From positions 1-55,998 of the forward strand of contig JABACB010000007.1 in NCBI GenBank assembly GCA_014237925.1: a DNA stretch of 55,998 nt. The letters are read 5' to 3'. Of the stretch, positions 3,365 through 44,614 are shown piece by piece. Source of the DNA: Alphaproteobacteria bacterium (GTDB lineage Bacteria; Pseudomonadota; Alphaproteobacteria; JABAAW01). Under the pieces are notes generated by a model that was given only the letters and a program-made list of their open reading frames with translations, searched no databases and was not told the DNA's origin. Positions within the stretch are counted from its first letter, which is position 1. Each line of letters starts with the position of its first letter. The translations under genes and the position numbers were made by a program.

Positions 3365-3374
3365 AAGAGTTAGG

Positions 3375-3851: not shown

Positions 3852-3852
3852 G

Positions 3853-4422: not shown

Positions 4423-4426
4423 CTTT

Positions 4427-5104: not shown

Positions 5105-5105
5105 G

Positions 5106-5786: not shown

Positions 5787-5790
5787 GGCG

Positions 5791-6147: not shown

Positions 6148-6164
6148 GCGTCTCACCGCCTGGG

Positions 6165-6485
6165 TCAGTTTTTTTCCAGACTTCCCTTGATGCCTTCGAC
6201 ATAGGCTCTTGTGAGCGCTCGTTTGACGAAGGGGAGGTCGAGCAGGCTTTGCAAGTTTTGTTGCGAGTAGGGATAGGGTTTCCCTTGTGCGTTTTGTATG
6301 TCTTGCCATCCTACGATGGCGACTTGCATGAGCGCGCGGTCGGGGTCGTTGTCGTCGGCGAGCTGTTGAGCGAAGCAGTCTTCGTCGAGCAGGCGAAAGG
6401 AGCAGACGAAGTTTTGCTCTTCGCCCGACGGCAGAACGACGGCGATATCGCGTTGGAAAGAGAAGGTTTCGTCGAGTCGGAACAT
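6165..6485 (-). CDS. Tail assembly chaperone G-like
   Basis: 106 aa. It starts MFRLDETFSFQRDIAVVLPSG and runs RLLDEDCFAQQLAD and VGWQDIQNAQG, the layout of G-type tail chaperones, with an N-terminal beta part and then helices. It ends GSLEKN at a TGA within the slippery site. It should act in the cytoplasm during tail assembly and not remain in the virion. Position between the tube protein and tape measure is diagnostic. The last codons GAA AAA AAC form the slip site for the -1 fusion with the next frame. Confidence 0.7.
   Translation of the reverse strand: MFRLDETFSFQRDIAVVLPSGEEQNFVCSFRLLDEDCFAQQLADDNDPDRALMQVAIVGWQDIQNAQGKPYPYSQQNLQSLLDLPFVKRALTRAYVEGIKGSLEKN
6168..6174 (-). promoter_or_regulatory. 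Canonical -1 ribosomal frameshift heptamer A-AAA-AAC
   Basis: On the minus strand the G-like gene ends CTG GAA AAA AAC TGA. The bases A AAA AAC fit X-XXY-YYZ in the zero frame, and a shift of -1 enters the T frame, which is open across the site. The stop codon sits directly after the heptamer. Confidence 0.7.
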
Positions 6486-6524
6486 GATTTTTCTCGTCGT
6501 TGTCAGTGCGTTGTCAGTGCGTTG

Positions 6525-7466: not shown

Positions 7467-7476
7467 AAGGGAAGAC

Positions 7477-7941
7477 TCAGGAGGTTGGAGAGTTCGTGGT
7501 GATGTGCTTGCATTCTATGGTCTCCACCCACAGCCTTTTTCCGTCTTGCACAGAAGGCGGTGTTGCAACGGGAGCTCCTGCCAGCAGTCGGCAAGGAAAG
7601 AATTGTTGATTTTTTTGTGCGGGCGGCGTCCATCCTTGTAACATTGCGCGGATGCTGTTTTTGAGGTTGTCGATGTTTTCGATCCCGCTGTTGGAGGGAC
7701 GCGGGGCTTTGGAGACGACGAGGAGAATGTTGATGTTGCTGGTGACGATCTGTTGATCGCCGTTGAGAAGTCGCGGGGGCTCTGCGCGTTCTGCAGCGTT
7801 GAAGAGGAAGACGTTGTTTTCGGCGAGGGTTGCGGGCAAGTCTCGTAAGTCTCGGATAGAGTCGATCCAACGCGGCTTTTGGAAGGTCGCGGGCGACGCG
7901 CTTGCGACTCTGTCGGCGAGGGCTTGGGCGAAGGAGGGCAT
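7477..7941 (-). CDS. Phage gp37-like tail terminator/completion protein (DUF1834-like)
   Basis: 154 aa. MPSFAQALADRVASA is followed by DLRDLPATLAENNVFLFNAAERAEPPRLLNGDQQIVTSNINILLVV, a beta-alpha layout seen in head-tail connector or tail terminator proteins, and by the phrase NLKNSIRAMLQGWTPP. It begins three bases after the gp36-like gene, the position of gp37 in Mu-type structural operons. It probably closes the tail end that joins the head. The family name is inferred from position and pattern. Confidence 0.5.
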   Translation of the reverse strand: MPSFAQALADRVASASPATFQKPRWIDSIRDLRDLPATLAENNVFLFNAAERAEPPRLLNGDQQIVTSNINILLVVSKAPRPSNSGIENIDNLKNSIRAMLQGWTPPAQKNQQFFPCRLLAGAPVATPPSVQDGKRLWVETIECKHITTNSPTS

Positions 7942-7944
7942 GGG

Positions 7945-8322
7945 TCAGGCGAAGCGCGGCGGATTTGGCGAGGCGGCTTTCTCCGCCTGCAAGACGATCC
8001 TGCCGTCGCGCAGGTCGCGCAAGAATCGCAAGGCTTCTCGGTAAGCGCCTTCGACGCGCTCGCGTGTGTCGGCGGCGTGATAGTCGTAGCGCACGACGGC
8101 GGCGGCGATGCGCTTTATCAGCGCGGGGACGGGACTCTGCAGCGGCACGCTGTAGCGCGTCGCGATGTGAGCGTCGATGAGCGCGCTCGCGTTGTCGATG
8201 AGGGATACGACGGCGCTGGCGTCCAAGGCGTTTGTGTTGTCGACGCCGAAGGCTGCGAAAACTTCTTCTTCTCCGAAGAGTTGCAGGAGCTCTGATGTTG
8301 AGAGGTACGGTGTGGGTGCCAT
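7945..8322 (-). CDS. Phage gp36-like head-tail connector (DUF1320)
   Basis: 125 aa, matching the usual length of the Mu gp36 family. Motifs: YLSTSELLQLFGEEEV at the N terminus, then ASAVVSLIDNASALIDAHIATRYSVPL, and RIAAAVVRYDYHAADTRERVEGAYREALRFLRDLRDGRI. These are the helical hallmarks of DUF1320 connector proteins, expected at the portal exit. It follows the capsid gene after a 176-base spacer containing an 11-bp repeat, and is tightly coupled to the gp37-like gene. Confidence 0.8.
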   Translation of the reverse strand: MAPTPYLSTSELLQLFGEEEVFAAFGVDNTNALDASAVVSLIDNASALIDAHIATRYSVPLQSPVPALIKRIAAAVVRYDYHAADTRERVEGAYREALRFLRDLRDGRIVLQAEKAASPNPPRFA

Positions 8323-8348
8323 GCTAGTCGGGGGGTTGTGTGTTTTGT

Positions 8349-8390
8349 CGTATCCTTCTCGTATCCTTCTCGTATCCTTCTTGTATCCTT
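8349..8390. repeat. 11-bp tandem repeat, about 4 copies
   Basis: CGTATCCTTCT is repeated four times, the last copy degenerate, in the spacer between the capsid gene and the gp36-like gene. Confidence 0.85.
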
Positions 8391-8498
8391 GGGGGGAGGC
8401 GCGTTTCGGAGGCGGTAGAGAAGCCCGCGCGCCTCCCCCTGAGGTTCTTTTGTCGAGAAGTTGTGACGAGGAGTTTTGTCGAGGAGTTTTGTTAGAGC

Positions 8499-9449
8499 TC
8501 AGAGGACGACATCTTTAAAGAGCATGCCGAGGTCCTTGGCAGCGACGATCTCGCAGCAGGATTCGACGACCCTGACGACGATGGCACCGCGCGCGCCCTT
8601 GTGTGGATCGGGAATGATTCCTGCGATTCGTTTGCCGTATTCAGCAGAGTATCCCCATGAGATTCCGCTCTGCGCGCCTGCGGCGGGGTTGATGTGGAGC
8701 AGGGCGATGTTCTTTCCCCACGAGAAGGCTTTGCTGATGTCTTGTCCTCTCGTTCCCGAGTTGTAGATGGAGTCTCCGACGAGCACTTGATGGATTTCGA
8801 GCAGGTCGGCGAGTTGCTGTTTGGTGACCGCCCCCTCGCGGTTGTCGGCGCTAGAGATGGAGGAGACGAGCTTCGGGTGCTGTCGGATTTTTGTCCAGGC
8901 CTCTCTGCCAATGACCATGGTGTTGGGACGCAGCAGGGGACTGTCGAGCGCGTTCAGAAGCAGTTCTCTTGGGTTGATATCTTCGTGGTCCCACTTTGCT
9001 TCTGGGCTAATGCCGACGTTCTGGCCTTTTCCTGTTGCGTAGCTGGCGATGTCTTGGACGATCTTGGCAACACGCCGTTCGCGGTCGAGCATGATGAGAT
9101 CGGTGAGAAACTCGACGGCTTTGGCTTGCGGGTCGAAGTCGAGGTTGGAGGCGCGCGCCTGTTCGATGTCGTCGATGGGAATGATGTCGTCGAGCCCGTA
9201 GTCGAGAACTGTGGCGCTCTTGTCGGTTGCGACATACTCTACGACGGTCGGCTCCGACTTCCTTCCGACCTTGGTGTCCGGTAGAGAGAAGTGTTGCTCG
9301 GAATCGAATTCGAGATACTTGAAGCTCTTCGTTGCAACAGGTATTCGCGGCATGATCTTGTCTGCGACGAAGCTCTGCATCGGATTTCGGTATGCAAGCG
9401 CGATGCCCTGCAGACGCGAGTCGACGGGAAAGGGTGCGGTTTCGGTCAT
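8499..9449 (-). CDS. Phage major capsid protein
   Basis: 316 aa. Starts MTETAPFPVDSRLQGIALAYRNP and continues SFVADKIMPRIPVATKSFKY, a pattern shared by capsid proteins of several transposable and temperate phages in which an N-arm is followed by 'adkv.P.v.v...'. Later come LDRERRVAKIVQDIASY, NTMVIGREAWTKIRQHPKLV, and a C-terminal ILGKNIALL-like strand ending GMLFKDVVL. It lies downstream of the protease/scaffold and decoration genes, as expected. It should form the icosahedral shell with an HK97-like fold. There is no sign of a cleaved long N-terminal delta domain. Confidence 0.75.
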   Translation of the reverse strand: MTETAPFPVDSRLQGIALAYRNPMQSFVADKIMPRIPVATKSFKYLEFDSEQHFSLPDTKVGRKSEPTVVEYVATDKSATVLDYGLDDIIPIDDIEQARASNLDFDPQAKAVEFLTDLIMLDRERRVAKIVQDIASYATGKGQNVGISPEAKWDHEDINPRELLLNALDSPLLRPNTMVIGREAWTKIRQHPKLVSSISSADNREGAVTKQQLADLLEIHQVLVGDSIYNSGTRGQDISKAFSWGKNIALLHINPAAGAQSGISWGYSAEYGKRIAGIIPDPHKGARGAIVVRVVESCCEIVAAKDLGMLFKDVVL

Positions 9450-9475
9450 GGTGTCTCCGTGGCTTGGGGGTTGTC

Positions 9476-9817
9476 TTAGCGTTGGATGAAAACTCGCACG
9501 AGGCTTCCGTTCGAGCTGCTTGACGAGAGGGCGATTCCAGCCTTCTCTCCGGAAGAGTGAAGCTTGGCTTTCCCGTTCGACGATGAGGCGACGGTCGACC
9601 CTATTTGGATGCTGGATGAGGCTTCGACTTCAAAGATGCCGAGGATACCGACATCGATTCGACCGCCGCTAGGAGCGGCAGTACCGCAGTTGACACCGAG
9701 GATTTTTCCATTGTTGGAGCTTTCCGCAACGTTGCCGTTGTTGCCGAGGGCGACGAATCGATGCTTTGATACTGCGGAGGAAGATTCGAAGGTTTTGACG
9801 AGGACTTGTTCAGACAT
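9476..9817 (-). CDS. Capsid decoration protein, copy 2 (DUF2190-like)
   Basis: 113 aa, beta-rich, with Gly and Ser repeats. Motifs: KHRFVALGNNGNVAESSNNGKILGVN, RIDVGILGIFEVEASSSIQIG, and GEKAGIALSSSSSNGSLV. It is a close paralogue of the gene just upstream (9925-10257); the C-terminal third is nearly identical in both protein and DNA. DUF2190-type proteins cement the outer surface of the capsid. The start at 9817 has an AAGGA ribosome-binding site. Two tandem copies suggest either a recent duplication or a two-component surface layer. Confidence 0.65.
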   Translation of the reverse strand: MSEQVLVKTFESSSAVSKHRFVALGNNGNVAESSNNGKILGVNCGTAAPSGGRIDVGILGIFEVEASSSIQIGSTVASSSNGKAKLHSSGEKAGIALSSSSSNGSLVRVFIQR

Positions 9818-9837
9818 AACGTTCCTTGGGGGTTGGA

Positions 9838-9874
9838 GGGAAGGGAAGGGAAGGGAAGGGAAGGGAAGGGAAGG
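9838..9874. repeat. GGGAA pentanucleotide microsatellite, about 7 copies
   Basis: A pure run of GGGAA units lies between the two decoration-protein genes, just upstream (minus-strand sense) of copy 2. Such a run can slip and change spacing. Confidence 0.9.
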
Positions 9875-9924
9875 TGAGGGTGAGGGAAAGGGGTGGATTT
9901 GTCTTGAGGGGCGGTGTTCGTCTC

Positions 9925-10257
9925 TCAGTGGCGCATGAGAACTTTCACGAGGCTTCCGTTCGAGCTGCTTGACGAGAGGGCGATTCCCGCCTTCTCTCCG
10001 TCAGAATGGGTTTTGACCCTTCCGCCGTTAGAGGATGCGACCGTCTCGCCTGCGCGGATGATTCCTGCTGCCTCGATCTCGAAGATGCCGAGGATGCCGA
10101 CATCGATTTGCCCGCCGGCACGAACGACAGAACCGCAGTTGGCACCGAGGACTCGTCCTGCGTTGGCGGTTTCTGCGACCTTGCCGTCGTTGTTGAGGGT
10201 GACGAATCGATGCTTTGCTACATCGAAGGAAGCTAGGAAGGTGGCTTTCTCGAACAC
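9925..10257 (-). CDS. Capsid decoration protein, copy 1 (DUF2190-like), GTG start
   Basis: About 110 aa from a GTG at 10257. Alignment with its tandem paralogue (shared KHRFV, RVLGANCG, QIDVGILGIFEIEAAG, GEKAGIALSSSSSNGSLVKV) places the start within a few codons of this GTG, and there is no ATG in that stretch. The longer open frame upstream overlaps the protease gene and has no phage-like content. Expected to sit on the outside of the capsid. No strong Shine-Dalgarno sequence is visible, so it may depend on translational coupling. Confidence 0.6.
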   Translation of the reverse strand: MFEKATFLASFDVAKHRFVTLNNDGKVAETANAGRVLGANCGSVVRAGGQIDVGILGIFEIEAAGIIRAGETVASSNGGRVKTHSDGEKAGIALSSSSSNGSLVKVLMRH

Positions 10258-10295
10258 AGTATTGCTGGGGGGAGGGAGGTTGAGGAAGGGGTGAG

Positions 10296-11165
10296 TTAGG
10301 TTGTCACATGTCGCACGGCTTCGGATGCCGAGACGATCAGTCCTTTCGCCGCTTGGCGTTGCATGTAGCGCGAGGCTTTTTGCGCGATGGCGACGCCGCT
10401 GTCTTGCGGCGGAGAGGGGGTTTCTGCGGAGCAAGTTTCCAGCGGGATGCGCGGGGGTTGTTGCTCGATGAAGTTGCACAGCCACGCGCGCGGGCTCTCG
10501 TCTTGGAAGTGCGCCGAGGATTCGTCAGCAAGCGAGGCGATGAGAGCTGTCAAGCTTGCCTTTTCGCAGGGCAAGATTTTTCCGTGCTCTATTTGTCTGT
10601 CGGCAAAGGAAATAATCTCTCTCCACTGCTTTTCGCTTTGGATTTCCTGCGGCGAGCGTTCGTCGCTTTGTTCGTCGCGGCTGTCGAAGAAGTTGAGCAG
10701 CGAGGGCTTTTTGAAATTGAAGGCGGCGGTGTTCTTTGGGCAGGCTCGGTCTGTCTCGGCGAACTTGAGCGGCGCGAGCCCCTTGATGGCGGGCGTTTGT
10801 GCGCCGAGCAATCCGATATGCCTCAGGTACCAGCTTTGGGATACGGGATTGTGCGGCGTATCGGGTCTGTAGAAGGAAGCGCTGACTTTTTTGTAGTGCC
10901 CTTTTCGTACGGCGTCAGAGACTTCGGGGGCGACATGCTTGAGGGTAGCCAGCAGCGATTTGCCGCGCCGTCTCAGCGTCTGCACCCACCCCCAAGCGGG
11001 CGCGTCGTCTCGCGGGTGTCCGAGGACGAGGGGGGCTTCGTGCAGAGCGGGGTCGTAGCAGGCGGCGATTCTGTCGAGCGTCGTGCTGTCGATGAGGATT
11101 GCACACCCGCTGGCGTCGGTGTGCTGTCCTGTGCGAAAAACTTCGATTTCGGTGTTTTGTGTCAT
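10296..11165 (-). CDS. Mu I-type head maturation protease/scaffold
   Basis: 289 aa. The N-terminal half has the Mu I-family signature: RTGQHTDASGCAILIDSTTLDRI, APLVLGHPRDDAPAWGWV, LLATLKHVAPEVSDAVRKGHYKKVSASFY. The segment LRHIGLLGAQTPAIKGL completes the protease domain. The C-terminal half is helical and charged, fitting a scaffold. In Mu the same gene yields a protease and, from an internal start, a scaffold protein; internal starts here cannot be judged by eye. It lies after the portal gene; the gpF-type morphogenesis gene expected between them is absent. Confidence 0.8.
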   Translation of the reverse strand: MTQNTEIEVFRTGQHTDASGCAILIDSTTLDRIAACYDPALHEAPLVLGHPRDDAPAWGWVQTLRRRGKSLLATLKHVAPEVSDAVRKGHYKKVSASFYRPDTPHNPVSQSWYLRHIGLLGAQTPAIKGLAPLKFAETDRACPKNTAAFNFKKPSLLNFFDSRDEQSDERSPQEIQSEKQWREIISFADRQIEHGKILPCEKASLTALIASLADESSAHFQDESPRAWLCNFIEQQPPRIPLETCSAETPSPPQDSGVAIAQKASRYMQRQAAKGLIVSASEAVRHVTT

Positions 11166-11215
11166 GATGCCTTATGGTGAGGGAGATTGGCGGATGTGGT
11201 AAGGGGAAGCGTCGT

Positions 11216-12595
11216 TCAGGCAGAGCCCTTGCTCTCGCTCGATGGACGGCTGTTGCGTTGCGTTTGTGCTGCGTTTTCGTCGTTGCGCGGGCTGCTGGCG
11301 TTGCGAGGCTGTTTTTTGCGGGGAAAGGTTTTTGCTCGTCCTCTCTCCGCCTGTTTTCTCTCGCCGTTGTTGTCGACAGGGTTGTTTTGCGCAAAGGGCG
11401 CAAGGGGGGTAATGGGGCTTGGTGTTTTTGAGTCGTTTTTGCTCCAAGTCCCGTTGAAATGGCTGTTGATCCAAGCGAGGTCGGGCTCGAAGCCCATGGC
11501 GGCGATGAGGGTTGCGGTCTGAGCGCTTTCGTAGAGGTCGGGAGCGGGATTGGTGTTGCGCCAGACTTTGGGAGGGTTGATGTCGCCGTAGTTCCAGCGT
11601 GTCCACCACAGGACGGGTCCGCTGTTGAAGGATGCGTCGATCTTTTCCGCGTCGGCCTTGACGAGAGTGTTTTTGGCGGTGTCGTGGACTTTGGCGTGCG
11701 CGTAGCTTCCGCCCTGCTCGGAGGTGAGGGTTGCGCCGAGGACGATTTTGCTGATGGCAAAGTTCATGCGATCGTACATGGTGGAAAAATCTGCGGAGCC
11801 GTTGCGCGTCGCCTCCATGAGTTCGAGCGCCATGCCTTCGGGCAACACGATTCCTGTGTCTCTGCGCACGGCTTGGCATGCCTCCAGCAGTTTTTCTTGG
11901 TCTTCTTCGCGTGTGCCCGGGGGGTATGTTGCGCGCACTGTGGGCAACGCGTACTTTTCCAAGAACAGGCACCACTCTTTTTGCGTCGCGCGGCGGAAGG
12001 AGACGGGCCAGTAGAGGAAGTGAGCCAAGCCTCTGCCGTAGGGATCGTCGTCGTGCCAGCTTCCTGCGGAGAAGGTCCAAAACTTTTCTTCGGGCATGGG
12101 CTTGCCGTCGGGCTCAGAGGTGGTTTTCAGCAGGAGTTGCGCGTTTGCATCGAATCGGAATCGTCTTGGGTTTCGCGTCACTATGCTTTGGAAGTCGACG
12201 AACCCTTTGGGTGCCTCCCACATGATTTCAGCCACCGCGTATCCGAAGAAGATTCCGTAGAGCATTTTTTCAACGACTCTGTTCCAGTTGATACGGATCA
12301 GGTTGCTTTTGAGTTTCTGCGCCGCTTCTTTTTCTTTGTGCGTTTCTCCGCCAGGGAGAACATCCCACTCGGCGGCGACGACGGCGCCGATGCGCTGCGC
12401 GAGGGTGGCTTTGACTTGATCGTCGGAGAGGACGAACTCGTAGAAGCCCGGGTCGCCCGCGGCTTTGTCGCGCAGCAGAGGATCCTGGACAGGGGCTGCG
12501 CGATTGCGCGCGAGGAAGGGAGAGGTGAAGTCGTCTCTGTCGCGGCTGCTGGCGATTTCCTGCAGGGGGGATGTGCTTGGGGGGGATGTGGCCAT
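11216..12595 (-). CDS. Phage portal protein (Mu gp29, DUF935)
   Basis: 459 aa. Family features: FYEFVLSDDQVKATLAQRIGAVVAAEWDVLPGG, NWNRVVEKMLYGIFFGYAVAEIMWE, FDANAQLLLKT, RRATQKEWCLFLEKYALPTVRATYP, and SEQGGSYAHAKVHDTAKNTLVKADAEKI. The portal forms the dodecameric ring through which DNA is packaged. It starts twelve bases after the terminase gene. The C-terminal 60 residues are Asn/Lys/Ser-rich and probably disordered. Length is near the usual 500 aa. Confidence 0.85.
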   Translation of the reverse strand: MATSPPSTSPLQEIASSRDRDDFTSPFLARNRAAPVQDPLLRDKAAGDPGFYEFVLSDDQVKATLAQRIGAVVAAEWDVLPGGETHKEKEAAQKLKSNLIRINWNRVVEKMLYGIFFGYAVAEIMWEAPKGFVDFQSIVTRNPRRFRFDANAQLLLKTTSEPDGKPMPEEKFWTFSAGSWHDDDPYGRGLAHFLYWPVSFRRATQKEWCLFLEKYALPTVRATYPPGTREEDQEKLLEACQAVRRDTGIVLPEGMALELMEATRNGSADFSTMYDRMNFAISKIVLGATLTSEQGGSYAHAKVHDTAKNTLVKADAEKIDASFNSGPVLWWTRWNYGDINPPKVWRNTNPAPDLYESAQTATLIAAMGFEPDLAWINSHFNGTWSKNDSKTPSPITPLAPFAQNNPVDNNGERKQAERGRAKTFPRKKQPRNASSPRNDENAAQTQRNSRPSSESKGSA

Positions 12596-12606
12596 GGTGG
12601 TCTCCG

Positions 12607-13911
12607 TTAGAGGAAGGGGTGGTGCCTTGCATCGCTACGCACGGAGCGCACTCTTGCGAAAGGTATTTCTCGTTGCGCTGCGAGGAGGGCGAGGGCGATT
12701 GCCCAAAACCTGTCAGCGTTGTGCTGGCTGCTTTCAGCCTTGAGGTGGGTTGTGTTGTTTTTGTGCTGAGCGCGTACGGCGTGCAGGTCGTCGAAGAGGA
12801 TCGGGCAGGGAGGAATGAGAAGGGTTTCTTCTTGCAGGCAACGCTTGAGCCTTGTTGCAAGATCGAGCTTTCGTGCGGCGGTAAAGTTGACGGCGATCGT
12901 TTTGCTCTTTCCGTAGCGCTGCGCGGCGTCTTCGACGGGTTTCTCTCCGATTCCCGTCGCGTCCATGGCGATGCGTTGCGCTCTGTAGCGTTGCACCATG
13001 CGGTCGAGGCGGAGGTCTTGCTCTTTGAAGGAGATGGCTTTGTGCGCTTGGATTTCGCGCAGCCAGTATTTTCCGTCGTATTTTTCGATTGCAACGGCGA
13101 CCCAGTAGTCGTTTCTTCTGGCGATGTCGTTTCCCAGGAAGGCAGGACCTCCTTGGAAGAGGTCGGGTCTTCCCGCCTTGTCGTTTTGCGCGCTTGCGAT
13201 GAGGTCGCGCGTCAGCCATCGTGCGCTTCCGTCCTGCCAGTCGAGTTCGAATTCCTGCTTCCACAAGCTTTCGTCTAGCGTATTCTTTCTGAGCGTCTCG
13301 ATGTCTCTCGGCAGTCCTTGGTTGACGGCTTGGAAGATGTCGATGCGATGCTTGGACCATCCTTCGGCTGCGTCTTGCATGAGGCGGAAGAACATGTTGT
13401 CGCTTCCGTTGGGTGTGGAGACGATTCGGAGTTTGAGTCCGTTTTTGGAGACGACAGGAAAGAGCGCGCGCCATATGGCATTGCTGTCGTTGTGGAAGGC
13501 GAACTCGTCGAGGAAGAGGTTTGCCGAGAAGCCTCGTGCGGTGTCGGGGTTGGCGGGCAGTACGGAGACCTTGGAGCCACTGGGAAAGACCATGGCGTTT
13601 TGGCTTTTCTGCACTCTGGGAAAGGGGTTCCCATGCGTAGCGCCTCTGTAGAGTTCTTCGAAGGCTTTGGCGAGCGGGATGAGATGTTCTGTCATGACCT
13701 CTTGCGCCTGTCGTTCTCCGCGCGAGAGGATGATCCATCGTGTTTTGGTTTTGTTCTGCTCTGCTTGAATGCAGTCCTTGAGGATTTCGGCGCAGTTCAT
13801 GAAAGTTTTTCCTGTTTGTCGAGCGAACATGCCGATTTTGAATCGCGCGTCGTCGTCGAGCCATCGTCGTTGGTACGGCAGGAGGTTGAGCAGGGGTTTG
13901 GCGTTGTTCAC
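12607..13911 (-). CDS. Phage terminase large subunit (Mu gp28-like)
   Basis: 434 aa. The ATPase domain shows Walker A ARQTGKT at residues about 30-36 and the Walker B strand ANLFLDEFAF near residue 130, with VSTPNG as the coupling motif. The nuclease part has GNDIARRNDYWVAVAIE (first acidic residue), RIAMDATGIGEKPVEDA and a C-terminal NADRFWAIALAL. These are the marks of the gp28 type. It drives DNA into the head with the portal. It lies between the gp27-like gene (7 bases) and the portal gene. Confidence 0.9.
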   Translation of the reverse strand: MNNAKPLLNLLPYQRRWLDDDARFKIGMFARQTGKTFMNCAEILKDCIQAEQNKTKTRWIILSRGERQAQEVMTEHLIPLAKAFEELYRGATHGNPFPRVQKSQNAMVFPSGSKVSVLPANPDTARGFSANLFLDEFAFHNDSNAIWRALFPVVSKNGLKLRIVSTPNGSDNMFFRLMQDAAEGWSKHRIDIFQAVNQGLPRDIETLRKNTLDESLWKQEFELDWQDGSARWLTRDLIASAQNDKAGRPDLFQGGPAFLGNDIARRNDYWVAVAIEKYDGKYWLREIQAHKAISFKEQDLRLDRMVQRYRAQRIAMDATGIGEKPVEDAAQRYGKSKTIAVNFTAARKLDLATRLKRCLQEETLLIPPCPILFDDLHAVRAQHKNNTTHLKAESSQHNADRFWAIALALLAAQREIPFARVRSVRSDARHHPFL

Positions 13912-13918
13912 GAGGGAG

Positions 13919-14449
13919 CTAGATACTGAGTCCGAGGATTTGCATGGCTTTGTTCATGGCTTGTTGGTCGATGGCTCCTTGTTTTTGCGCGTGACGGAGT
14001 TTTTGCGCTTGTTGTTGTTTGATGTTGTTTTCGACGGCGTTGTGCATGGCGAGGTCGTTTTTTGCGGCTTCGGAGAGGGCGCGGATGGCACGCGAGAACT
14101 TGGCGGTATCTTCGAGGGAGAAGTTTTTGCCTTGTGTTTGCAGCTTGAGAAGTTGGTCGTTGAGCAGTTCGATGTTGAGCTTGGTTTTCTTGAGAATGTT
14201 GTTCTTGCCGCCGTTTTCGGTGAGCACTCTTGCGATCGATCGGTTTTTCCTGAGTGTTTTTCCTGTCCCTAGGAGGTTTTGTTTTTCGTTATGGCAGTTG
14301 TTGGGGTGCTGTGTGTTGTTGAGGCAGTCTTGCAGGATTTGAAAGATGGCTTGGGAGTTTTCGCCGCTATCGAGCATGACTTCGATAGATTTGCGGAAGT
14401 TTTGGATGACTTCTTGCGAGACTTTTCGAGGGGTATTTTTTTTGCTCAT
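13919..14449 (-). CDS. Mu gp27-like protein (DUF3486-like), probable small packaging protein
   Basis: 176 aa from the ATG at 14449, two bases after the DUF2730 gene. The N-terminal part (SQEVIQNFRKSIEVMLDSG) looks like a DNA-binding helix pair. The C-terminal part, LEDTAKFSRAIRALSEAAKNDLAMHNAVENNIKQQ, matches the helical tail of the DUF3486 family. Members are thought to act as the small terminase subunit in Mu-like phages. Position immediately before the large terminase supports this. The middle section (HPNNCHNEKQNLLGTGKTLRK) is unusual and I do not recognise it. Confidence 0.6.
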   Translation of the reverse strand: MSKKNTPRKVSQEVIQNFRKSIEVMLDSGENSQAIFQILQDCLNNTQHPNNCHNEKQNLLGTGKTLRKNRSIARVLTENGGKNNILKKTKLNIELLNDQLLKLQTQGKNFSLEDTAKFSRAIRALSEAAKNDLAMHNAVENNIKQQQAQKLRHAQKQGAIDQQAMNKAMQILGLSI

Positions 14450-14451
14450 GC

Positions 14452-14730
14452 TTATTGTTGTGTTCTGAGGAATTCGCCGATTCGATCGACGGCTTTGTCG
14501 ATTCGGTCGACTTTCTCTTGGAAGCGGGCGAGGCTTTCTTTGAGTGCGTGGAGTTCGTCCTTGACGGGCAGGCTTTCGAGTTTGATTTCGAGTTCGCGCA
14601 CTTTCGCTTCCATGGCGTAGAAGTGTCTTTTGGGAATCGTTGCGCGTTTGACCGACCATAAGAACCATCCGACGAGGAGGTTCAGCAGGAAGAGGACGAT
14701 GCCGATATTTTTGAAAAGAAGAATGGACAC
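14452..14730 (-). CDS. DUF2730 family membrane-anchored coiled coil (Mu gp25-like)
   Basis: 92 aa. One hydrophobic segment (IGIVLFLLNLLVGWFLWSV, residues about 9-27) is followed by a heptad-rich coiled coil: ELEIKLESLPVKDELHALKESLARFQEKVDRIDKAVDRIGEFL. This is the standard DUF2730 layout, always found just before gp26/gp27 in Mu-like phages. The function is unknown; a role with lysis or inner-membrane spanning has been guessed for the family. It is packed between the Mor-like and gp27-like genes with spacings of 3 and 2 bases. Confidence 0.7.
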   Translation of the reverse strand: MSILLFKNIGIVLFLLNLLVGWFLWSVKRATIPKRHFYAMEAKVRELEIKLESLPVKDELHALKESLARFQEKVDRIDKAVDRIGEFLRTQQ

Positions 14731-14733
14731 GGT

Positions 14734-15156
14734 TCAGCCGTTGAGAGAGAGGGCGGATGGGCGGTCGGTCGCGACGGGTAAGGACGGAGAGGCTTGTTTT
14801 CGGTTTTGTGCGAGAATTTGCAGGACTCGTCGTCGTGAGATTCCGCATATTTGAGCAATGTCGTTGAGCCTGCATCCTTTCTCTTTGAGCGCGACGCATC
14901 GTGGTGCGGTGTTTTTGGCGGGGGTAGGCTCCGGCCTTGCGGGAAAGTCGACGGCTTCGCCGGAGAATTGTTCGCAGATTTTTTCTGCCGTTCGGCTTCC
15001 GAGGAATCGTCGCAGCGTGTGGTCTTTGGCGAGGCGTGTTTTTTGTGGGATGTAGATCCTTTGTCCTGCGAGGGCGGCGAGTGTTTTTGCGCCGACCTCA
15101 GAGCCGAGCGAGAGGAGGATTCGGTGATAGATCGACTGGTTTAAGGACGGGTTCAT
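14734..15156 (-). CDS. Mor-like transcription activator of the late phage operon
   Basis: 140 aa. The segment SEVGAKTLAALAGQRIYIPQ resembles the Mor/C dimerisation domain of Mu, whose family hallmark is 'G..iYIP'. A C-terminal helix-turn-helix, LKEKGCRLNDIAQICGISRRRVLQIL (residues about 90-115), matches the Mor DNA-binding part. Mor activates middle or late transcription. In Mu, early genes lie upstream of it; here only one small gene does. It overlaps the preceding small gene by four bases. The call depends on two motifs and gene order. Confidence 0.55.
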   Translation of the reverse strand: MNPSLNQSIYHRILLSLGSEVGAKTLAALAGQRIYIPQKTRLAKDHTLRRFLGSRTAEKICEQFSGEAVDFPARPEPTPAKNTAPRCVALKEKGCRLNDIAQICGISRRRVLQILAQNRKQASPSLPVATDRPSALSLNG

Positions 15157-15407
15157 GGATTTTTTTCGGGAATTTGTATCGTTCTAAGAAATTCGCGTCT
15201 GGAGAGGTTTTCGAGCGGCCACGGCAGGTCGTGCGGCCACTGCTGTTCCATCCACAGAGCGACGCGTGCGCATTGGGAGAGGGTGACCCTTCCGTAGCGG
15301 AGTCGCAGGAAGAATCGACTGTCGCCTGCGGCGTAGGTGCCTAATGTTGCAATCGACCAGTTCTTGTGGGCGGTGAACTGCTCGGCGAGTTGCGCAATGT
15401 TTTTCAT
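15153..15407 (-). CDS. Small Cro-like/HTH regulator, first gene of the phage operon
   Basis: 84 aa from the ATG at 15407. LAEQFTAHKNWSIATLGTYAAGDSRFFLRLRYG reads as a compact helix-turn-helix, and the ending ARVALWMEQQWPHDLPWP is the tail seen in many small alphaproteobacterial phage and plasmid regulators. It is preceded by a promoter and two 15-bp direct repeats, the second of which includes its own start codon, so autoregulation is likely. Longer starts (ATG at 15416 or the open frame up to 15458) would run into the promoter. Confidence 0.5.
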   Translation of the reverse strand: MKNIAQLAEQFTAHKNWSIATLGTYAAGDSRFFLRLRYGRVTLSQCARVALWMEQQWPHDLPWPLENLSRREFLRTIQIPEKNP

Positions 15408-15458
15408 AATAAACATAGAACTATTTTCATAATAAACACTGAATATGTCAAGCGTCAA
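15401..15458 (-). promoter_or_regulatory. Promoter/operator of the phage structural operon
   Basis: Minus-strand -35 TTGACG (15453-15458), 18-base spacer, -10 TATTAT (15429-15434). A 15-bp direct repeat TGTTTATTATGAAAA occurs at 15424-15438, covering the -10, and again at 15401-15415, covering the start codon. Copies are 23 bp apart, about two helical turns, as expected for an operator bound by a small dimeric regulator. Confidence 0.6.
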
Positions 15459-32067: not shown

Positions 32068-33123
32068 ATGTCTTGTCGCGTCGCCATCCTGGGAGCGAGC
32101 GGTTATACGGGATCCGAGTTGTTGCGCTGTCTCTTGTTGCGGCGCGCGATTGCAGGGGATGTCGAGCTCAAGGCTTTGACGAGCTCGAGCAGGGCGGGTC
32201 GCCATTTAGGCTCGCTGTTGCCGCAGTTTGCGGGCGCGGATTTGCCCGTGCTGTCCTTGTGGGAGGAGGTGGATTGGAAAGAGGTGGATGTTGCTTTTTG
32301 CGCGCTACCGCACGGCACGACGCAGGAGGTGATTGCGAAGCTTTGGCGGCACGAGCGTTTGCGGATCATCGATCTTTCGGCGGACTTTCGTTTGCGCGAT
32401 TTGGCGTTGTACGAGCGGTGGTATGGCAAGGCGCATGCGGCGCCTGAGTTGCAGGGGGAGGCTTGTTACGGGTTGAGCGAGTGGCATGGGAAGGGTATTG
32501 CCAAGTCGCGCTTGATTGCGAATCCGGGATGTTATGCGACGGCTTGTCAGTTGGCGTTGTTGCCTGTTGCGGAGAGGGTTGATTTGGAGACGGTGTTTTT
32601 GAGTGCTGCCTCAGGGGCTAGCGGTGCGGGGCGGAGTCTGCGTGAGGATTTGTTGTATTGCGAGTTGAACGAGAACTTTCGTCCTTACGCGACCTCTGGG
32701 CATCGTCATGTTGCGGAGATCGAGCAGGGATTGTGTTGGCGATTGGGTGTGGCGAAGGTTTCTCCTGTGAGTTTTGTTCCGCATCTTTTGCCATTGGATC
32801 GGGGGATTATGGTTTCGATGTCGGCGCGGATGCGTCGGGGGGAGGGGGTTTCGGATTTGCGCGAAGCGATGGCGGAGGCTTATGCGGAGAGTATTTTTGT
32901 CGATGTATTGGATGAGGGGGATGTTCCTTCGTTGAAGCGTGTTCGAGGGACGAATCGCTGCTTGCTTTCGGTGTGCGCCGATCGAAGAGAGGGGTGGGTA
33001 GTTGTTTTTTCTGCGATCGACAATCTTGTGAAGGGAGCGAGCGGTCAGGCATTGCAGAACATGAATCTTTTGTTGGGCTTGGAGGAGGGGACAGGCTTGG
33101 GAGGCGGCGCCTTCTTGCCTTGA
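32068..33123 (+). CDS. argC: N-acetyl-gamma-glutamyl-phosphate reductase
   Basis: 351 aa. NADP-binding GASGYTGSELLRCL at residues 9-22, catalytic Cys in IANPGCYATACQLAL, ASGASGAGRSLREDLLYCELNENFRPYATSGHRH, and VSFVPHLLPLDRGIM. C-terminal DNLVKGASGQALQNMNLLLG is typical. It catalyses the third step of arginine synthesis. Preceded by an 86-base spacer containing TTGACGAAG-like repeats. Followed by a 733-base spacer without genes. In many alphaproteobacteria argC sits next to rplM-rpsI; here it does not. Confidence 0.95.
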   Translation: MSCRVAILGASGYTGSELLRCLLLRRAIAGDVELKALTSSSRAGRHLGSLLPQFAGADLPVLSLWEEVDWKEVDVAFCALPHGTTQEVIAKLWRHERLRIIDLSADFRLRDLALYERWYGKAHAAPELQGEACYGLSEWHGKGIAKSRLIANPGCYATACQLALLPVAERVDLETVFLSAASGASGAGRSLREDLLYCELNENFRPYATSGHRHVAEIEQGLCWRLGVAKVSPVSFVPHLLPLDRGIMVSMSARMRRGEGVSDLREAMAEAYAESIFVDVLDEGDVPSLKRVRGTNRCLLSVCADRREGWVVVFSAIDNLVKGASGQALQNMNLLLGLEEGTGLGGGAFLP

Positions 33124-33856: not shown

Positions 33857-35269
33857 CTACCTCTGCGCATGCCTTTTGTCGTCGCACATCCTCCCCCCCC
33901 AAACCCCACAACCCAACTCCCGCAAATCCGCGAACGCGCTTGCCTCCTCCCCACTCCCCCCGCGCACAAGCCACATCTCGTCCTCTCGAATCTTTTCAGA
34001 AAACAGACCGCGCTTGCTCTTCTCCAACAGCTTCGGCTTCGGCAAGTCCACACGCCTCGGGTTCACAGCCCTCCCGTCGCGAAGAATCTCGTAGTGCAAA
34101 TGCGCCCCCGTCGACATGCCACTGCTACCCACATAGCCGATCACTTGCCCCTGTTTGACCCTGCCCCCCTTACGCAATCCGCGCGCAAACGAACGCATAT
34201 GCGCGTACAAGGTCGAGAGGCGGTCGTTGTGTTGCAACAAGACATAACGTCCATAGCCCTTTCCGTAGACCCTCTTGCGCACAATCCCGTCGCCCGCCGC
34301 CAAAATGGGCGTTCCACGCGGTGCTGCGAAATCAACCCCCTTGTGCATTCTCGTGTAGCCCAAGATGGGATGGCGCCGCAAGCCGAAGCGAGAAGTCAGA
34401 CGCAACCCGCTCATCGGCGTACGGCGCAGAAGCCTTTTGGCGGGCTTGCCGTCTTCGTCGTAAAAGGCTTCGTTCCAACCGCTGCGATGGTAACGATACT
34501 CTTTCCTTCCGGTATAGAGCTCCGCCATCTCCAGCACGGTTTCTCCCAAGGGCAGCCAGGCGCCGCCTTCTCCAAGACGAAGCTTTCGGCTCAACAGCAT
34601 GCGAAACCTCGCCCCTGCCCAAATCTCGCGTTGGAAATCGACATCGTAGCTCATCACATCGACGAAGCGTCGGAGCAGAGGCAGGGCGATTCCATGCTCT
34701 AGCGCCGTTTCGTACAGGCTGCTGCGGATGGCATAGTCGAGGACGCGATACTCGGTGCGCGTGGGTAAGGAGGTTTGTTGCTGCTGTAGAGGGTTTTCTA
34801 CAGGCAAGGCTCGAGGCAGCAGGGAGAGCGGGGGTTCTTGGGCGAGGGCGACAGCGACACTCTCTGCGTCTTTCGTGGCGAGCGGGGGGTCGCTGAGGCT
34901 GAGGGAGAGGGAGGATGAGAGCGAGAGCGAGAGGAGAACGAGCGCGCCTCCGACGAGAGGGCGAGGGTGGCTCAAGCAGAGTCGGCGGAAGAAGCTGACG
35001 CTCGTGCGAGCTGCCTTGACGAGGGCGGGCAAAAAGAAGCGCAAAAAGAAGCATCGGAGCATATATTTTGCTGCTCGCAACACTTGCAACAGGACTTGCC
35101 ATGCGCTTTGTCCCATGCGTTGTACAAGGCGTTGTACAAGGCGTCGTACGAGCGATGCCACCGTTTTTGTGAAGACCAGAACAACGGGCAGGGCTTGGGT
35201 GGCGTGGATGGCGAGCAGGACGCGCAGGGCGAAGAGTCGCAGGCGCAGTTCTTTGACGAGGGTTTCCAT
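33857..35269 (-). CDS. M23 family peptidoglycan metallopeptidase
   Basis: 470 aa; the start at 35269 has AGGAA upstream. The catalytic LytM domain (about residues 285-400) has the HxxxD motif MHKGVDFAAPRGTPI, GYGRYVLLQHNDRLSTLYAHM, and HLHYEI, so all three zinc ligands are present. Earlier, RTEYRVLDYAIRSSLYETALEHGIAL resembles the OapA/LysM-like region that precedes M23 domains. A hydrophobic stretch (VGGALVLLSLSLSSSLSLSLS, near residue 115) should be a single membrane anchor; before it lies an unusual basic and helical 100-residue tail. It probably trims peptidoglycan in the periplasm. Its upstream region is the DnaA-box array. Confidence 0.87.
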   Translation of the reverse strand: METLVKELRLRLFALRVLLAIHATQALPVVLVFTKTVASLVRRLVQRLVQRMGQSAWQVLLQVLRAAKYMLRCFFLRFFLPALVKAARTSVSFFRRLCLSHPRPLVGGALVLLSLSLSSSLSLSLSDPPLATKDAESVAVALAQEPPLSLLPRALPVENPLQQQQTSLPTRTEYRVLDYAIRSSLYETALEHGIALPLLRRFVDVMSYDVDFQREIWAGARFRMLLSRKLRLGEGGAWLPLGETVLEMAELYTGRKEYRYHRSGWNEAFYDEDGKPAKRLLRRTPMSGLRLTSRFGLRRHPILGYTRMHKGVDFAAPRGTPILAAGDGIVRKRVYGKGYGRYVLLQHNDRLSTLYAHMRSFARGLRKGGRVKQGQVIGYVGSSGMSTGAHLHYEILRDGRAVNPRRVDLPKPKLLEKSKRGLFSEKIREDEMWLVRGGSGEEASAFADLRELGCGVWGGRMCDDKRHAQR

Positions 35270-35270
35270 A

Positions 35271-35537
35271 CTTTTCCTATGTTGTTCTCAAGTTATCCAC
35301 AGGTTGTTCACAATTTGTTCGGAAGTTTTTCGCTGTTTCAGGGGAGTTGTCCACAGGGTACGCACAGGTTTTGCAAGGATTGTTCGCGGGGTTATCCCCA
35401 AGTTATCCACAGGTTTGTCGAGGATTACTCAAGGATTACTCAAGGGTTACTCAGGGGTTACTCAGGGGTTATTCAAGGGCTATTCAAGGGCTATTCAAGA
35501 GTTATCCACAGGGTTATCCACAGAGTTTTCCACAGGG
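35271..35537. other. Phased array of DnaA-box-like 11/12-bp units; putative replication origin
   Basis: About 24 consecutive units of form TTATCCACAGG, spaced 11 bp (occasionally 10 or 12) from 35271 to 35537. Perfect TTATCCACA occurs at 35293, 35403, 35502 and 35514; TTTTCCACA at 35526, TTGTCCACA at 35347 and TTATCCCCA at 35392 are single-change forms. Units between are decayed (for example TTACTCAAG at 35425, 35436). All boxes share one orientation. Chance expectation is below one perfect box per 56 kb. This is a DnaA-binding cluster; whether it fires as oriC is inferred. The rest of the spacer to 35822 holds short GAATCATGAA and CCCAAGAAA repeats and a purine-rich tract and no supported gene. 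Confidence 0.6.
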
Positions 35538-35822
35538 TATCTTGCAGTCTACAAGCCCCAAGAACCATGAAGCCCCAAAAATCATGAACGAAGAATCATG
35601 AATGAAGAACCATGAACGAATCCCCAAGAAGCTTCCTTGAAGTCCCAAAAGAAACGCCCAAGAAATGCCCCAAGAAATACCCAAGAAACACCATGTTCGC
35701 TTGCATTATGGCAATTTTTATGCCGAAGAAGAAAAGAAAAGAGAAAAGAAAAGATGCGCTCGCTCTGCAGAATTTGCTAGAACACAGACAGCCCTCGCCT
35801 TGTAGTCGTCCAATAGCCTCCC

Positions 35823-36803
35823 TTGTCCTCCGCCGCTCGCCACGCCCAAACCGCTCTGTCGCCCGTGCTGCCCTTCTGCACCGCCGACACGGATTCCTCG
35901 CCGAAGGATTCGTCGTCAAGTAACGCGCTTGAAACGCCGCTGGTAGGAGAGCATTTCGGCGTTCTGAACCGCGGCTTCGTGCGGCTGGTCGACAGCATGG
36001 GGTCGGATGCGGCGATCGTGCAAGCAGCGCGCGTCTCCTACGGCAAAGGGACGAAGAAAACACGCGAAGACCGCGCTTTGATTCGCTACCTGATGCGCCA
36101 TCGCCACAACTCTCCCTTCGAGATGTGCGAGCTGAAGCTGCATGTGAAACTGCCCGTGTTCGTGGCGCGTCAATGGGTGCGGCATAGAACGGCAAGTTTG
36201 AACGAATACTCGGCGCGCTACTCGGAGATGCGCGAAGAATTTTATGTGCCAAACGAACCAAACGGCGGCGATGCCCTTTTCTCCGAGGCGCATCTGGGCA
36301 AGCAGTCGCAGGAGAACCGACAGGGGCGGAGCGAAGACTTGACGCTCGCTCAGAAAGACAAACGCTCGCGCCTGAGCGCGCGTCTGGAAGACCGTGCGCA
36401 CAAGGCTTTCGCCTTCTACCGCGAGCTTTTGGAGAAAGGAGTCAGCCGCGAGCTTGCGCGCATCACGCTGCCGCTTTCGACCTACACGGAGTTTTACTGG
36501 AAGGCGAACCTGCACAACCTGTTTCATTTCCTGGAGCTGCGCTTGGACACTCACGCGCAGGAAGAGATTCGTCTCTACGCAGAGACGATCTTCGAGAAGA
36601 TCGTGCGTCCGTTGTTCCCGCAAGCGAGCGAAGCTTTCCAGGACTATCGTCTCGATAGCTTGGACTTGTCGCGCGGCGAGGTGGCGCTGTTGCGCGGGCT
36701 GGTGAAGGGGGGGGAGGTCGTTCGTCCGCAGGGAGATTTCTCACAGCGCGAATGGCAGACCTTTCTGACACGCTTTTCGCTGAGGGAGAAGGATGAAGGT
36801 TGA
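35823..36803 (+). CDS. thyX: Flavin-dependent thymidylate synthase
   Basis: 326 aa from a TTG; the exact start is uncertain because no ATG precedes the conserved region (a GTG at 35865 is the other choice) and no clear ribosome-binding site is seen. Signature RHRTASLNEYSARYS is the ThyX motif; others are AARVSYGKGTKKTREDRALIRYLMRHRHNSPFEM and GVSRELARITLPLSTYTEFYWKANLHNLFHFLELR. It makes dTMP with FAD and methylenetetrahydrofolate. A loop insert (NGGDALFSEAHLGKQSQENR) is charged. It overlaps efp by eleven bases. Confidence 0.92.
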   Translation: MSSAARHAQTALSPVLPFCTADTDSSPKDSSSSNALETPLVGEHFGVLNRGFVRLVDSMGSDAAIVQAARVSYGKGTKKTREDRALIRYLMRHRHNSPFEMCELKLHVKLPVFVARQWVRHRTASLNEYSARYSEMREEFYVPNEPNGGDALFSEAHLGKQSQENRQGRSEDLTLAQKDKRSRLSARLEDRAHKAFAFYRELLEKGVSRELARITLPLSTYTEFYWKANLHNLFHFLELRLDTHAQEEIRLYAETIFEKIVRPLFPQASEAFQDYRLDSLDLSRGEVALLRGLVKGGEVVRPQGDFSQREWQTFLTRFSLREKDEG

Positions 36804-41036: not shown

Positions 41037-41113
41037 TTCTGTCAAGCCGATGAGGCGTAGAAAGCCTTCGGTTGTGGTGGGATTCAGCGAAAGGAGATCA
41101 AGGAGCAAGATCG

Positions 41114-44100
41114 ATGACATCATACTCTGACAGTACGCAGGGCAATGCGTTGCCCGCCCATCGTCGCAACAAGAGGACGCGCGCGTTGAGCGCCTTGCTT
41201 TCTGCGACGGCACTAGGCGTGTTTTTGGAAGGTTGCGGCGGCGGCGCGGGCGGCGGCGCGGGCGGCGGCGGCGGTGGTAACAGCAGCGGTGCTGGTAACA
41301 CCAGCGATGTCGGTGTCAATCTTGTCGGTAACGCGGGCAACGACATTCTTACGGGCAATGGGGGCAACGACATTCTTACGGGCGGTGCGGGCAACGACAG
41401 TCTTACGGGCAATGGGGGCGACGACAGCCTTGACGGCGGCGCGGGCAACGACATTCTTACGGGCAATGGGGGCGACGACAGCCTTGACGGCGGCGCGGGC
41501 AACGATGAACTTCGCGGCGGCGGGGGAGACGACAGGCTTGACGGCGGAGAAGGATGGGACGATCTCTACGGTGGCGAGGGGGATGACAGGATCGAGGGTG
41601 GTGCGGGCAGCGACGAACTCTACGGTGGTGCGGGCGACGACATCCTCGACGGCGGAGAAGGAGACGACAAGCTCGAAGGCGGCGAGGGCGATGACATCAT
41701 CAATTCTGGCGCGGGCGACGATTACCATGTCCACGGCGGTGCGGGGAACGACGAGATCGACAGCGGCGAGGGAAGCGATTACTATGTCTACGGTGGTGAG
41801 GGCGACGATATCATCAATACTGGCGTGGGCAACGATTACCATGTCTACGGTGGTGAGGGCGACGACATCATCAATACTGGCGCGGGCGACGATTACCGTG
41901 TCCACGGCGGCGCGGGCGATGACATCATCAATACTGGCGCGGGCGACGATTTCCTTGTCCGCGGCGGTGCGGGTGATGACAAGATCTATGGCGGCGATGG
42001 CAACGACGGCCTTGACGGCGGAGAAGGAGACGACATCCTCGACGGCGGTGCGGGGGCGGACAAGATTGACGGTGGCGAGGGCGATGACGGGATCAATGCT
42101 GGCGCGGGCGACGATTACCTTGTCCGCGGCGGTGCGGGCAACGACGAGATCTATGGCGGCGAGGGCAACGACGATCTCTACGGTGGGGAGGGTGATGACA
42201 TTCTTGATGGAGGCGCGGACATCGACTATCTCGAGGGCGGTGAGGGCGATGACATCTTACACGGCGGCACAGGCGACGATATCCTCGACGGCGGCGCGGG
42301 CGAGGACAGGCTTGACGGCGGCGAGGGCGAAGACAGACTTGAAGGCGGAGAGGGAGACGACATCTTAGACGGCGGAGAGGGAGACGACGGACTTAACGGC
42401 GGCGCGGGCGCAGACACCCTCGATGGTGGTGCGGGAAATGATCTCCTTGTGGGCGAAGAGGGCGACGACCACCTCGATGGCGGCACGGGAAATGATGCCC
42501 TTGTGGGCGACGCGGGCAACGACATTCTTGACGGCGGCACGGGAAATGATCGCCTTGCGGGCGGCGCGGGCGAAGATATCCTAGACGGCGGCGAGGGTGA
42601 TGAAGACCTTGTCTTCTATACTACCTCTGACGAAGGAGTCAGAATCAGCCTTTTGTTGCAAGGAGAAAAACAAAAAGATTTTGATGGGGAAAACGATCTA
42701 CAAGCCAACGATAACGAAGGGGTGGGCGACATCCTCACCAATGTAGAAGGCGTCGTCGGATCAAGGCACGACGACTGGATCACCGGCGACGGGGGGAACA
42801 ACGACCTTCGTGGCTACACAGGGCACGACATCCTTGAGGGCGGCGCGGGCGACGACATGATCGATGGCGGCGTAGGAGCAGACAATCTCTACGGCGGCGA
42901 GGGAGCAGACACCCTTGACGGAGGGGACGATTGGGACCTCCTCGATGGTGGTGCGGGCGACGACAATCTTGACGGGGGGGAAGGCAACGACCTTCTTGAA
43001 GGCGGCGCGGGCGCGGACAACCTAGAAGGCGGCGAAGGAACGGACAGAGCCTTCTATCACAATGCCAAGGAGGGGGTTAGGATTGATCTCAATCTGGAAG
43101 GGGGACAAGAAGATTTTGAAGGGGCGGATGCCAACGGCAACGAAGCCGTGGGCGATACCCTCAGCGGCATCGAAAACATCGTCGGCTCGAACCACAAAGA
43201 TTGGCTGACGGGCGACGACGAGGACAACCTCCTTGACAGCGGCGAGGGCGACGACATTCTTGTGGGCGGCTGGGGCGACGATACCCTTTACGGCGGCGAG
43301 GGTGCGGACAGGCTTGAGGGAGGGGACGACAGTGATTGGCTTGAGGGCGGCGAGGGTGCGGACATCATCGACGGGGGGGCGCACCCAGATGGCGATGTGG
43401 CGCACCCAGATGACGAATTTCGCGGTAAAGACACTGCCTCCTATGCTTCCTCGGGCAAGGGGGTTAGGGTAAGCCTTTTGTTGCAAGGAGAAGTGCAGGA
43501 GGACTTTGATGGGGAAAACAGCTTGCAAGCCAATGAAAACGAGGCGGTGGGCGACATCCTCAGAAATATAGAAAATGTCAAGGGGTCCGATCACGACGAC
43601 TGGCTTGTGGGCGACGACGGGGAAAACACCCTCGATGGCGACAACGGAGCCGACGTGCTTGACGGCGGCGGCGGCGACGACATCCTCAAAGGAGGCGGGG
43701 GCGACGACAACCTCAAAGGAGGCGAGGGCGACGACAGAATCAGAGGTGATACAGGTGTCGATACGCTGGACGGCGGTGCGGGCAACGACATCCTCAAAGG
43801 AGGCGGGAGCGGAGACACGCTGGATGGCGGCGAAGGCGAAGACATCCTCGACGGCGGCGAGGGCGTAGACACCCTCGACGGCGGCGAAGGTGCGGACGAC
43901 CTCAGAGGCGGCGAGGGCGACGACCATCTCAAAGGCGGCAAAGGCGCAGACAGCATCGACGGCGGCGAAGGCACCGATTACGCCGACTATCGAGACGCCG
44001 AAGAAGGGGTCAGGGTGAACCTCGACGAACAAGAGGGACAGGAGGACTTCGACGGAACGCACGGCTTTGCGCCCAACGGCAACGAAGCCATCGGAGACAC

Positions 44101-44614
44101 CTTCTCCAGCATCGAAGTTGTGGAGGGCTCGGCGCACGACGACTGGCTCACGGGCGATGACAATAACAACTGGCTGGTCGGAAACGGCGGCAACGATCGA
44201 CTGGAGGGCGGCGGTGGCAGCGACACGCTCTACGGCTTGGACGGCGACGACACGCTGGACGGCGGCGCGGGAACGGACACCTATCTCTTCAGAATTGGCG
44301 ATGGTAGCGATACCATCACCGATGTCGCCCGCGAGGAAGACGATGTCATGTTCTTAAGGTTCCGAGGTCGTCTTTACAACACGGAAGATTTCGACAGCTC
44401 CGTCTTTGAAAGAGTCGGCGACGACCTTGTCATTTCCTTGGACAAGCAACCCGACGACGACATCACGGACAAAGTCACGATCTTAGGTGCTTACGACAGC
44501 AACCCCGACACGGGAACGGGCAACGCAGCCTTTACGATCAGTATCTCGCACGGTCACAGCGGCGACGATTTCATCGCCATCACCGATATTTGGTCTGACC
44601 TCCTTTCTGCCTAA
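41114..44614 (+). CDS. Large RTX calcium-binding-repeat lipoprotein, type I secretion candidate
   Basis: 1166 aa from the ATG at 41114 (AAGGAG upstream). A basic N-terminus and hydrophobic stretch end in the lipobox-like GVFLEGC, followed by a Gly linker. Then come dozens of GGxGxDxL nonapeptides that bind calcium in a beta-roll. Four repeated inserts of about 65 residues interrupt the rolls: each has a GVR-strand, QEDF(D/E)G, EAVGD(I/T)L and a WL(T/V)GD ending (near 42605, 43042, 43432, 43976). The C-terminal ~100 residues (SDTITDVAREEDDVMFLRF onward, ending WSDLLSA) fit a type I secretion signal domain. It is probably a cell-surface or matrix protein. No HlyB/D-type exporter is nearby. Confidence 0.85.
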   Translation: MTSYSDSTQGNALPAHRRNKRTRALSALLSATALGVFLEGCGGGAGGGAGGGGGGNSSGAGNTSDVGVNLVGNAGNDILTGNGGNDILTGGAGNDSLTGNGGDDSLDGGAGNDILTGNGGDDSLDGGAGNDELRGGGGDDRLDGGEGWDDLYGGEGDDRIEGGAGSDELYGGAGDDILDGGEGDDKLEGGEGDDIINSGAGDDYHVHGGAGNDEIDSGEGSDYYVYGGEGDDIINTGVGNDYHVYGGEGDDIINTGAGDDYRVHGGAGDDIINTGAGDDFLVRGGAGDDKIYGGDGNDGLDGGEGDDILDGGAGADKIDGGEGDDGINAGAGDDYLVRGGAGNDEIYGGEGNDDLYGGEGDDILDGGADIDYLEGGEGDDILHGGTGDDILDGGAGEDRLDGGEGEDRLEGGEGDDILDGGEGDDGLNGGAGADTLDGGAGNDLLVGEEGDDHLDGGTGNDALVGDAGNDILDGGTGNDRLAGGAGEDILDGGEGDEDLVFYTTSDEGVRISLLLQGEKQKDFDGENDLQANDNEGVGDILTNVEGVVGSRHDDWITGDGGNNDLRGYTGHDILEGGAGDDMIDGGVGADNLYGGEGADTLDGGDDWDLLDGGAGDDNLDGGEGNDLLEGGAGADNLEGGEGTDRAFYHNAKEGVRIDLNLEGGQEDFEGADANGNEAVGDTLSGIENIVGSNHKDWLTGDDEDNLLDSGEGDDILVGGWGDDTLYGGEGADRLEGGDDSDWLEGGEGADIIDGGAHPDGDVAHPDDEFRGKDTASYASSGKGVRVSLLLQGEVQEDFDGENSLQANENEAVGDILRNIENVKGSDHDDWLVGDDGENTLDGDNGADVLDGGGGDDILKGGGGDDNLKGGEGDDRIRGDTGVDTLDGGAGNDILKGGGSGDTLDGGEGEDILDGGEGVDTLDGGEGADDLRGGEGDDHLKGGKGADSIDGGEGTDYADYRDAEEGVRVNLDEQEGQEDFDGTHGFAPNGNEAIGDTFSSIEVVEGSAHDDWLTGDDNNNWLVGNGGNDRLEGGGGSDTLYGLDGDDTLDGGAGTDTYLFRIGDGSDTITDVAREEDDVMFLRFRGRLYNTEDFDSSVFERVGDDLVISLDKQPDDDITDKVTILGAYDSNPDTGTGNAAFTISISHGHSGDDFIAITDIWSDLLSA

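Follow-up and report, generated by a model that had tools for sequence, protein, structure and literature searches.

A genus-wide, helically phased array of putative DnaA boxes upstream of a MepM-like endopeptidase gene in Alphaproteobacteria

E. coli datA, a strong DnaA-box cluster away from oriC, and the six DnaA-box clusters (DBCs) of B. subtilis, intergenic clusters outside oriC that hold DnaA, both lower initiation (PMC5295017). The former comprises five boxes in ~1 kb, and its promotion of DnaA-ATP hydrolysis depends on IHF. In Caulobacter, ftsZ, gcrA, and podJ are under DnaA control, and promoters of this kind, together with that of E. coli mioC, have boxes 5' of a cell-cycle or envelope-related gene (PMC8203912). 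Within origins, the DnaA-oligomerizing regions of T. maritima and of the E. coli half-origins contain boxes in one direction, with a phasing that suits head-to-tail oligomers (PMC10316083). The array described here (35271..35537, + strand; ~24 units of 10-12 bp in a single direction) shares features with each of these and is best read, by analogy, as a datA/DBC-like cluster, but a denser and phased one tied to a cell-wall gene. It differs from datA in its ~24 units within 270 bp, its strict 11-bp phase, its single direction, and its position next to a cell-wall gene; helical phase and a single direction are features undescribed for the DBCs in the relevant part of PMC5295017, and where B. subtilis has six clusters the genome studied here has one large and one small. 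The array resembles DnaA-controlled promoters but greatly exceeds an ordinary operator in its number of units, and, unlike an oriC oligomerizing region, it has neither an adjacent unwinding element nor a switch in strand composition and is accompanied by a separate canonical origin candidate.

The window, that is, the whole stretch of 55,998 nucleotides that was analyzed, is contig C387 of a 409-contig, 1.97-Mb draft assembly (G000) from an uncultured alphaproteobacterium. Short tandem repeats with periods of 10-16 bp are exceptionally abundant in it, and most of them are species-specific. It also contains a block of minus-strand genes that code for phage portal (Mu type), terminase, and tail domains, a prophage or gene-transfer-agent-like cluster (881-15458), and a gene (41072-44614) for a 1180-aa protein made up of glycine-aspartate-rich, 9-residue-type repeats (RTX-like by eye), which are encoded by 27-bp repeats in the DNA. 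Within the array, the perfect DnaA boxes TTATCCACA reported in a preliminary description of this DNA are all present (35293..35301, 35403..35411, 35502..35510, and 35514..35522); they are the only perfect copies in the window and account for 4 of the 11 in the assembly. The box at 35502 opens a 12-bp-spaced triplet, also noticed earlier, which is completed by TTTTCCACA (35526..35534), a sequence that fits TTWTNCACA, and which is present in the sister species G002 as well. Further near boxes are TTGTTCACA (35304..35312; two mismatches against TTATCCACA), TTGTCCACA (35347..35355), and TTATCCCCA (35392..35400). In all, four perfect copies and four near-matches lie on the + strand, and none is reversed in any of the five species compared, in agreement with the single direction originally proposed. 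The proposal of about 24 box-like units at 11 bp held for the period: autocorrelation of the array region is maximal at 11 bp, and TRF returns period 11 with 8.6 to 9.6 copies at 35421-35538. The likeness to the box is more limited: of the ~24 units, no more than 8 match TTATCCACA with two mismatches or fewer, and the middle third of the array is distant from the box consensus. This middle block (35421..35500, + strand), composed of in-phase but degenerate 11-bp units (GGRTTACTCAA / GGGYTATTCAA) that make poor boxes, probably binds DnaA weakly if at all. Seven sites with at most one mismatch occur in 242 bp of the array; at the average for the whole assembly, which has 168 of them, a stretch of that length would contain 0.02. 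Nevertheless, chance statistics alone are insufficient as proof of function because units can copy in tandem, and comparison with relatives does more to support one.

Pooling the units of the five species gives TTATNCACAGG, in which the fifth position is free (C 32, T 20, G 8, A 7); bases 1-4 and 8-9 are mostly fixed, while bases 6-7 are fixed by the way in which the units were selected. The resulting consensus, TTATNCACA with its free fifth base, agrees with the published DnaA consensus, TTWTNCACA (PMC5043019). G000 also encodes one full DnaA; its domain IV contains the GGRDHTTV signature and matches that of E. coli (1j1v). The array units are likely DnaA boxes, an identification from sequence that is supported by the consensus, the free fifth base, the single orientation, the helical phasing, and the conservation in five species. 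One alternative is that the TTATNCACA-like units are operators through which a DNA-binding protein other than DnaA acts on the adjoining endopeptidase gene, mepM, as the tie of the array to that gene and its confinement to the genus might suggest. This is unlikely, given that the unit equals the DnaA consensus down to the free fifth base and that 47 of the 385 alphaproteobacterial genomes sampled contain adjacent phased pairs of the same boxes (11-12 bp), while the reversed control matched nowhere. Long arrays like that at mepM are rare in the same sample. Elsewhere, a 270-bp stretch of the near-complete genome G259 (L238, 9575-9843) holds 14 exact TTWTNCACA boxes in mixed orientation, and in two small-genome alphaproteobacteria (G136/G237) 11-12-bp-phased arrays of TTATGCACA/TTATCCACA lie 5' of a fabI-like gene (L236, 9934-10165; L237, 10013-10195), the one in G136 running into the contig end. 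The fabI arrays, like that at mepM, consist of 11-12-bp-phased boxes outside a known origin context, but they belong to another locus and another family, and the TTATGCACA units are partly in mixed orientation.

In all four congeneric genomes examined (G001-G004), the M23 peptidase gene likewise has a same-direction box array directly 5' of it. Autocorrelation has its maximum at 11 bp or at a multiple thereof in each of the five species, and of the 48 distances between boxes, 45 differ by no more than 1 bp from a multiple of 11. Box bases are conserved better than the rest of the array, both between G000 and G002 (80% vs 62%; Fisher P 0.007) and between G003 and G004 (80% vs 55%; Fisher P 0.0002). 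These comparisons bear on the reading of the array as a neutral tandem repeat, generated by a genome that produces repeats of 10-16 bp and similar to DnaA boxes only incidentally, a reading for which the 76 tandem-repeat rows returned by TRF in 56 kb and the partial origin of the array in plain unit duplication can be adduced. The array matches all four congeners, whereas ten other tandem arrays taken from the same syntenic block as controls match none (E <= 0.01); this control largely refutes neutrality, and with the better conservation of boxes than of spacers and the preservation of orientation and phase in all five species it renders that explanation the least probable of those considered. 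Because the ten other arrays of the block are without counterpart in the congeners, the box array is probably under selection, as judged from these alignments, rather than a by-product of a repeat-prone genome. Outside the genus, the array is absent from G005, the nearest relative examined, and none was found at 80 M23 loci of other taxa from public genomes, the congeners excepted. A smaller, 12-bp-phased array of TTATCCCCA/TTATCCATA/TTGTCCACA units, also TTATCCACA-like, occurs 3' of rsmB on contig C55 (L015, 8955-9020). It has a counterpart in G002 and none in G001 or G004; its presence in both G000 and G002 hints that arrays of this sort may arise readily in this lineage.

The gene that the array accompanies (33857..35269, - strand) has a start codon that abuts the array and encodes an M23 peptidoglycan DD-endopeptidase of 470 aa, which is MepM/ShyC-like yet scores under the curated cut-offs. 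In G000, the surrounding block reads thrS-infC-argC-[mepM+array]-thyX-efp, with argC (32068..33123, + strand) at the flank of the conserved block and thyX (35823..36803, + strand) across the array from mepM, an arrangement confined to G000 and G002. G001, G003, and G004 have argC-array-mepM-thyX instead; relative to these three, the segment consisting of mepM and the array (33857-35537) has been flipped in place between its neighbors argC and thyX in G000 and G002, and the array is on the 5' side of mepM in both orientations. Since mepM and the array were inverted as a unit, it is mepM, and not the other neighbor, to which the array has stayed linked. Likewise, because its other flank in G001, G003, and G004 is the 3' end of argC, mepM is the sole gene start that adjoins the array in all five species. 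The boxes in the mepM 5' region have accordingly been conserved with the gene in five species and through an inversion. A scan for sigma-70-like promoters, which covers alphaproteobacterial promoters poorly, gave none above chance in the array region, and an RNA element is unsupported by Rfam, which has no match in the window.

The array had initially been put forward as a candidate replication origin, and this claim fared poorly. A bidirectional origin requires a sign change in strand composition. Third-position skew of minus-strand genes, which include Pfam- or NCBIfam-identified ones on both sides, is alike to the left (GC +0.41, AT -0.38) and to the right of the array (GC +0.36, AT -0.45), as is that of plus-strand genes (left, GC 0.09, AT -0.25; right, GC 0.12, AT -0.26), and the contigs of G002, G003, and G004 keep one skew sign across their arrays. 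Among sampled contigs of G000 and G001, some are strongly skewed (GC skew ~0.15-0.24) and others, within one assembly, are nearly unskewed over up to 184 kb. Moreover, no strongly AT-rich unwinding element lies beside the G000 array, where the richest 60 bp reach 68% AT; the corresponding maxima near the congener arrays are 72-78%, in comparison with 87-90% in the intergenic region between hemE and ppsR.

That intergenic region, on contig C222, is a canonical alphaproteobacterial origin candidate by its sequence and setting. The contig holds hemH-hemE and ppsR-maf-aroE on the two sides of the region, with parB, parA, and mnmG nearby, and surroundings of hemE and parB-parA-mnmG are the usual neighborhood of alphaproteobacterial origins. 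The region includes a 60-bp stretch at 90% AT and a motif composed of a DnaA-like box, two bases, and then TTATTATTATTAG, which is kept in G000 and G002 and is shorter in G004. The motif resembles the DnaA-trio arrangement (PMC5295017), although only its first triplet strictly fits the trio consensus. On the 125-kb contig, the cumulative GC-skew minimum falls at 12.9 kb and the keto minimum at ~11.0 kb, with hemE-ppsR at 11.1 kb; the skew signal is weak, and the remainder of the contig is nearly unskewed. An origin next to dnaA was also considered and rejected, the dnaA contig (C233) having no perfect box and only two with one mismatch. The landmarks by which the origin claim was to be checked therefore lie elsewhere: dnaA is on C233, hemE and parB-parA are on C222, and the array, with several DnaA boxes away from the origin candidate, is on C387, while the skew minimum is far from the array as far as draft contigs allow. 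What can be said for the array as the chromosomal oriC, possibly moved from an ancestral hemE site, with DnaA filling the boxes and melting nearby DNA, is that it is the only perfect-box cluster found in each of the five draft congeneric genomes, that it is phased and one-directional, and that the hemE-ppsR site of G000 has degenerate boxes only. Strand composition, the missing AT-rich element, and the better candidate at hemE-ppsR, which combines box, TTATTATTATTAG, and AT-rich stretch next to parB-parA-mnmG and close to the contig's skew minimum, led to the rejection of an origin at the array, which is considered quite improbable.

The array is instead proposed, with a probability of roughly two in three, to be a DnaA-binding cluster outside oriC that has been selected 5' of mepM and that would serve as a sink for DnaA, as a switch by which DnaA levels act on mepM, or as both. 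Through domain IV, monomers of DnaA would occupy the strong boxes (35293, 35403, and 35502-35534) and from there might extend across the weaker units in a head-to-tail filament; such spreading would follow one face of the helix because of the 11-bp repeat of the units on a single strand. The filled array could, as a sink for DnaA, delay or buffer initiation at oriC and/or act as a DnaA-level switch on mepM, the promoter of which probably lies in or beside the array. Binding, filament formation, and a sink or switch effect are all suggested by motif, phase, orientation, conservation, and linkage to mepM; the linkage favors a role at mepM, and the number of units favors a sink. A bolder and rather doubtful version holds that a long helical DnaA filament on the mepM control region would work as a counting switch: accumulating DnaA would fill the phased array, buffering initiation at oriC while setting the expression of the endopeptidase. 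If true, it would couple chromosome replication and cell-wall cutting through one DNA element.

Only in a few model bacteria are DnaA sinks beyond the origin well known, and how cells link the initiation of replication with growth of their wall is an open question. Programs that find origins by counting boxes would probably miscall this array as oriC. Dense, phased, and fixed to a cell-wall hydrolase gene across the genus, it offers a natural test case for DnaA titration and for DnaA as a filament-forming regulator.
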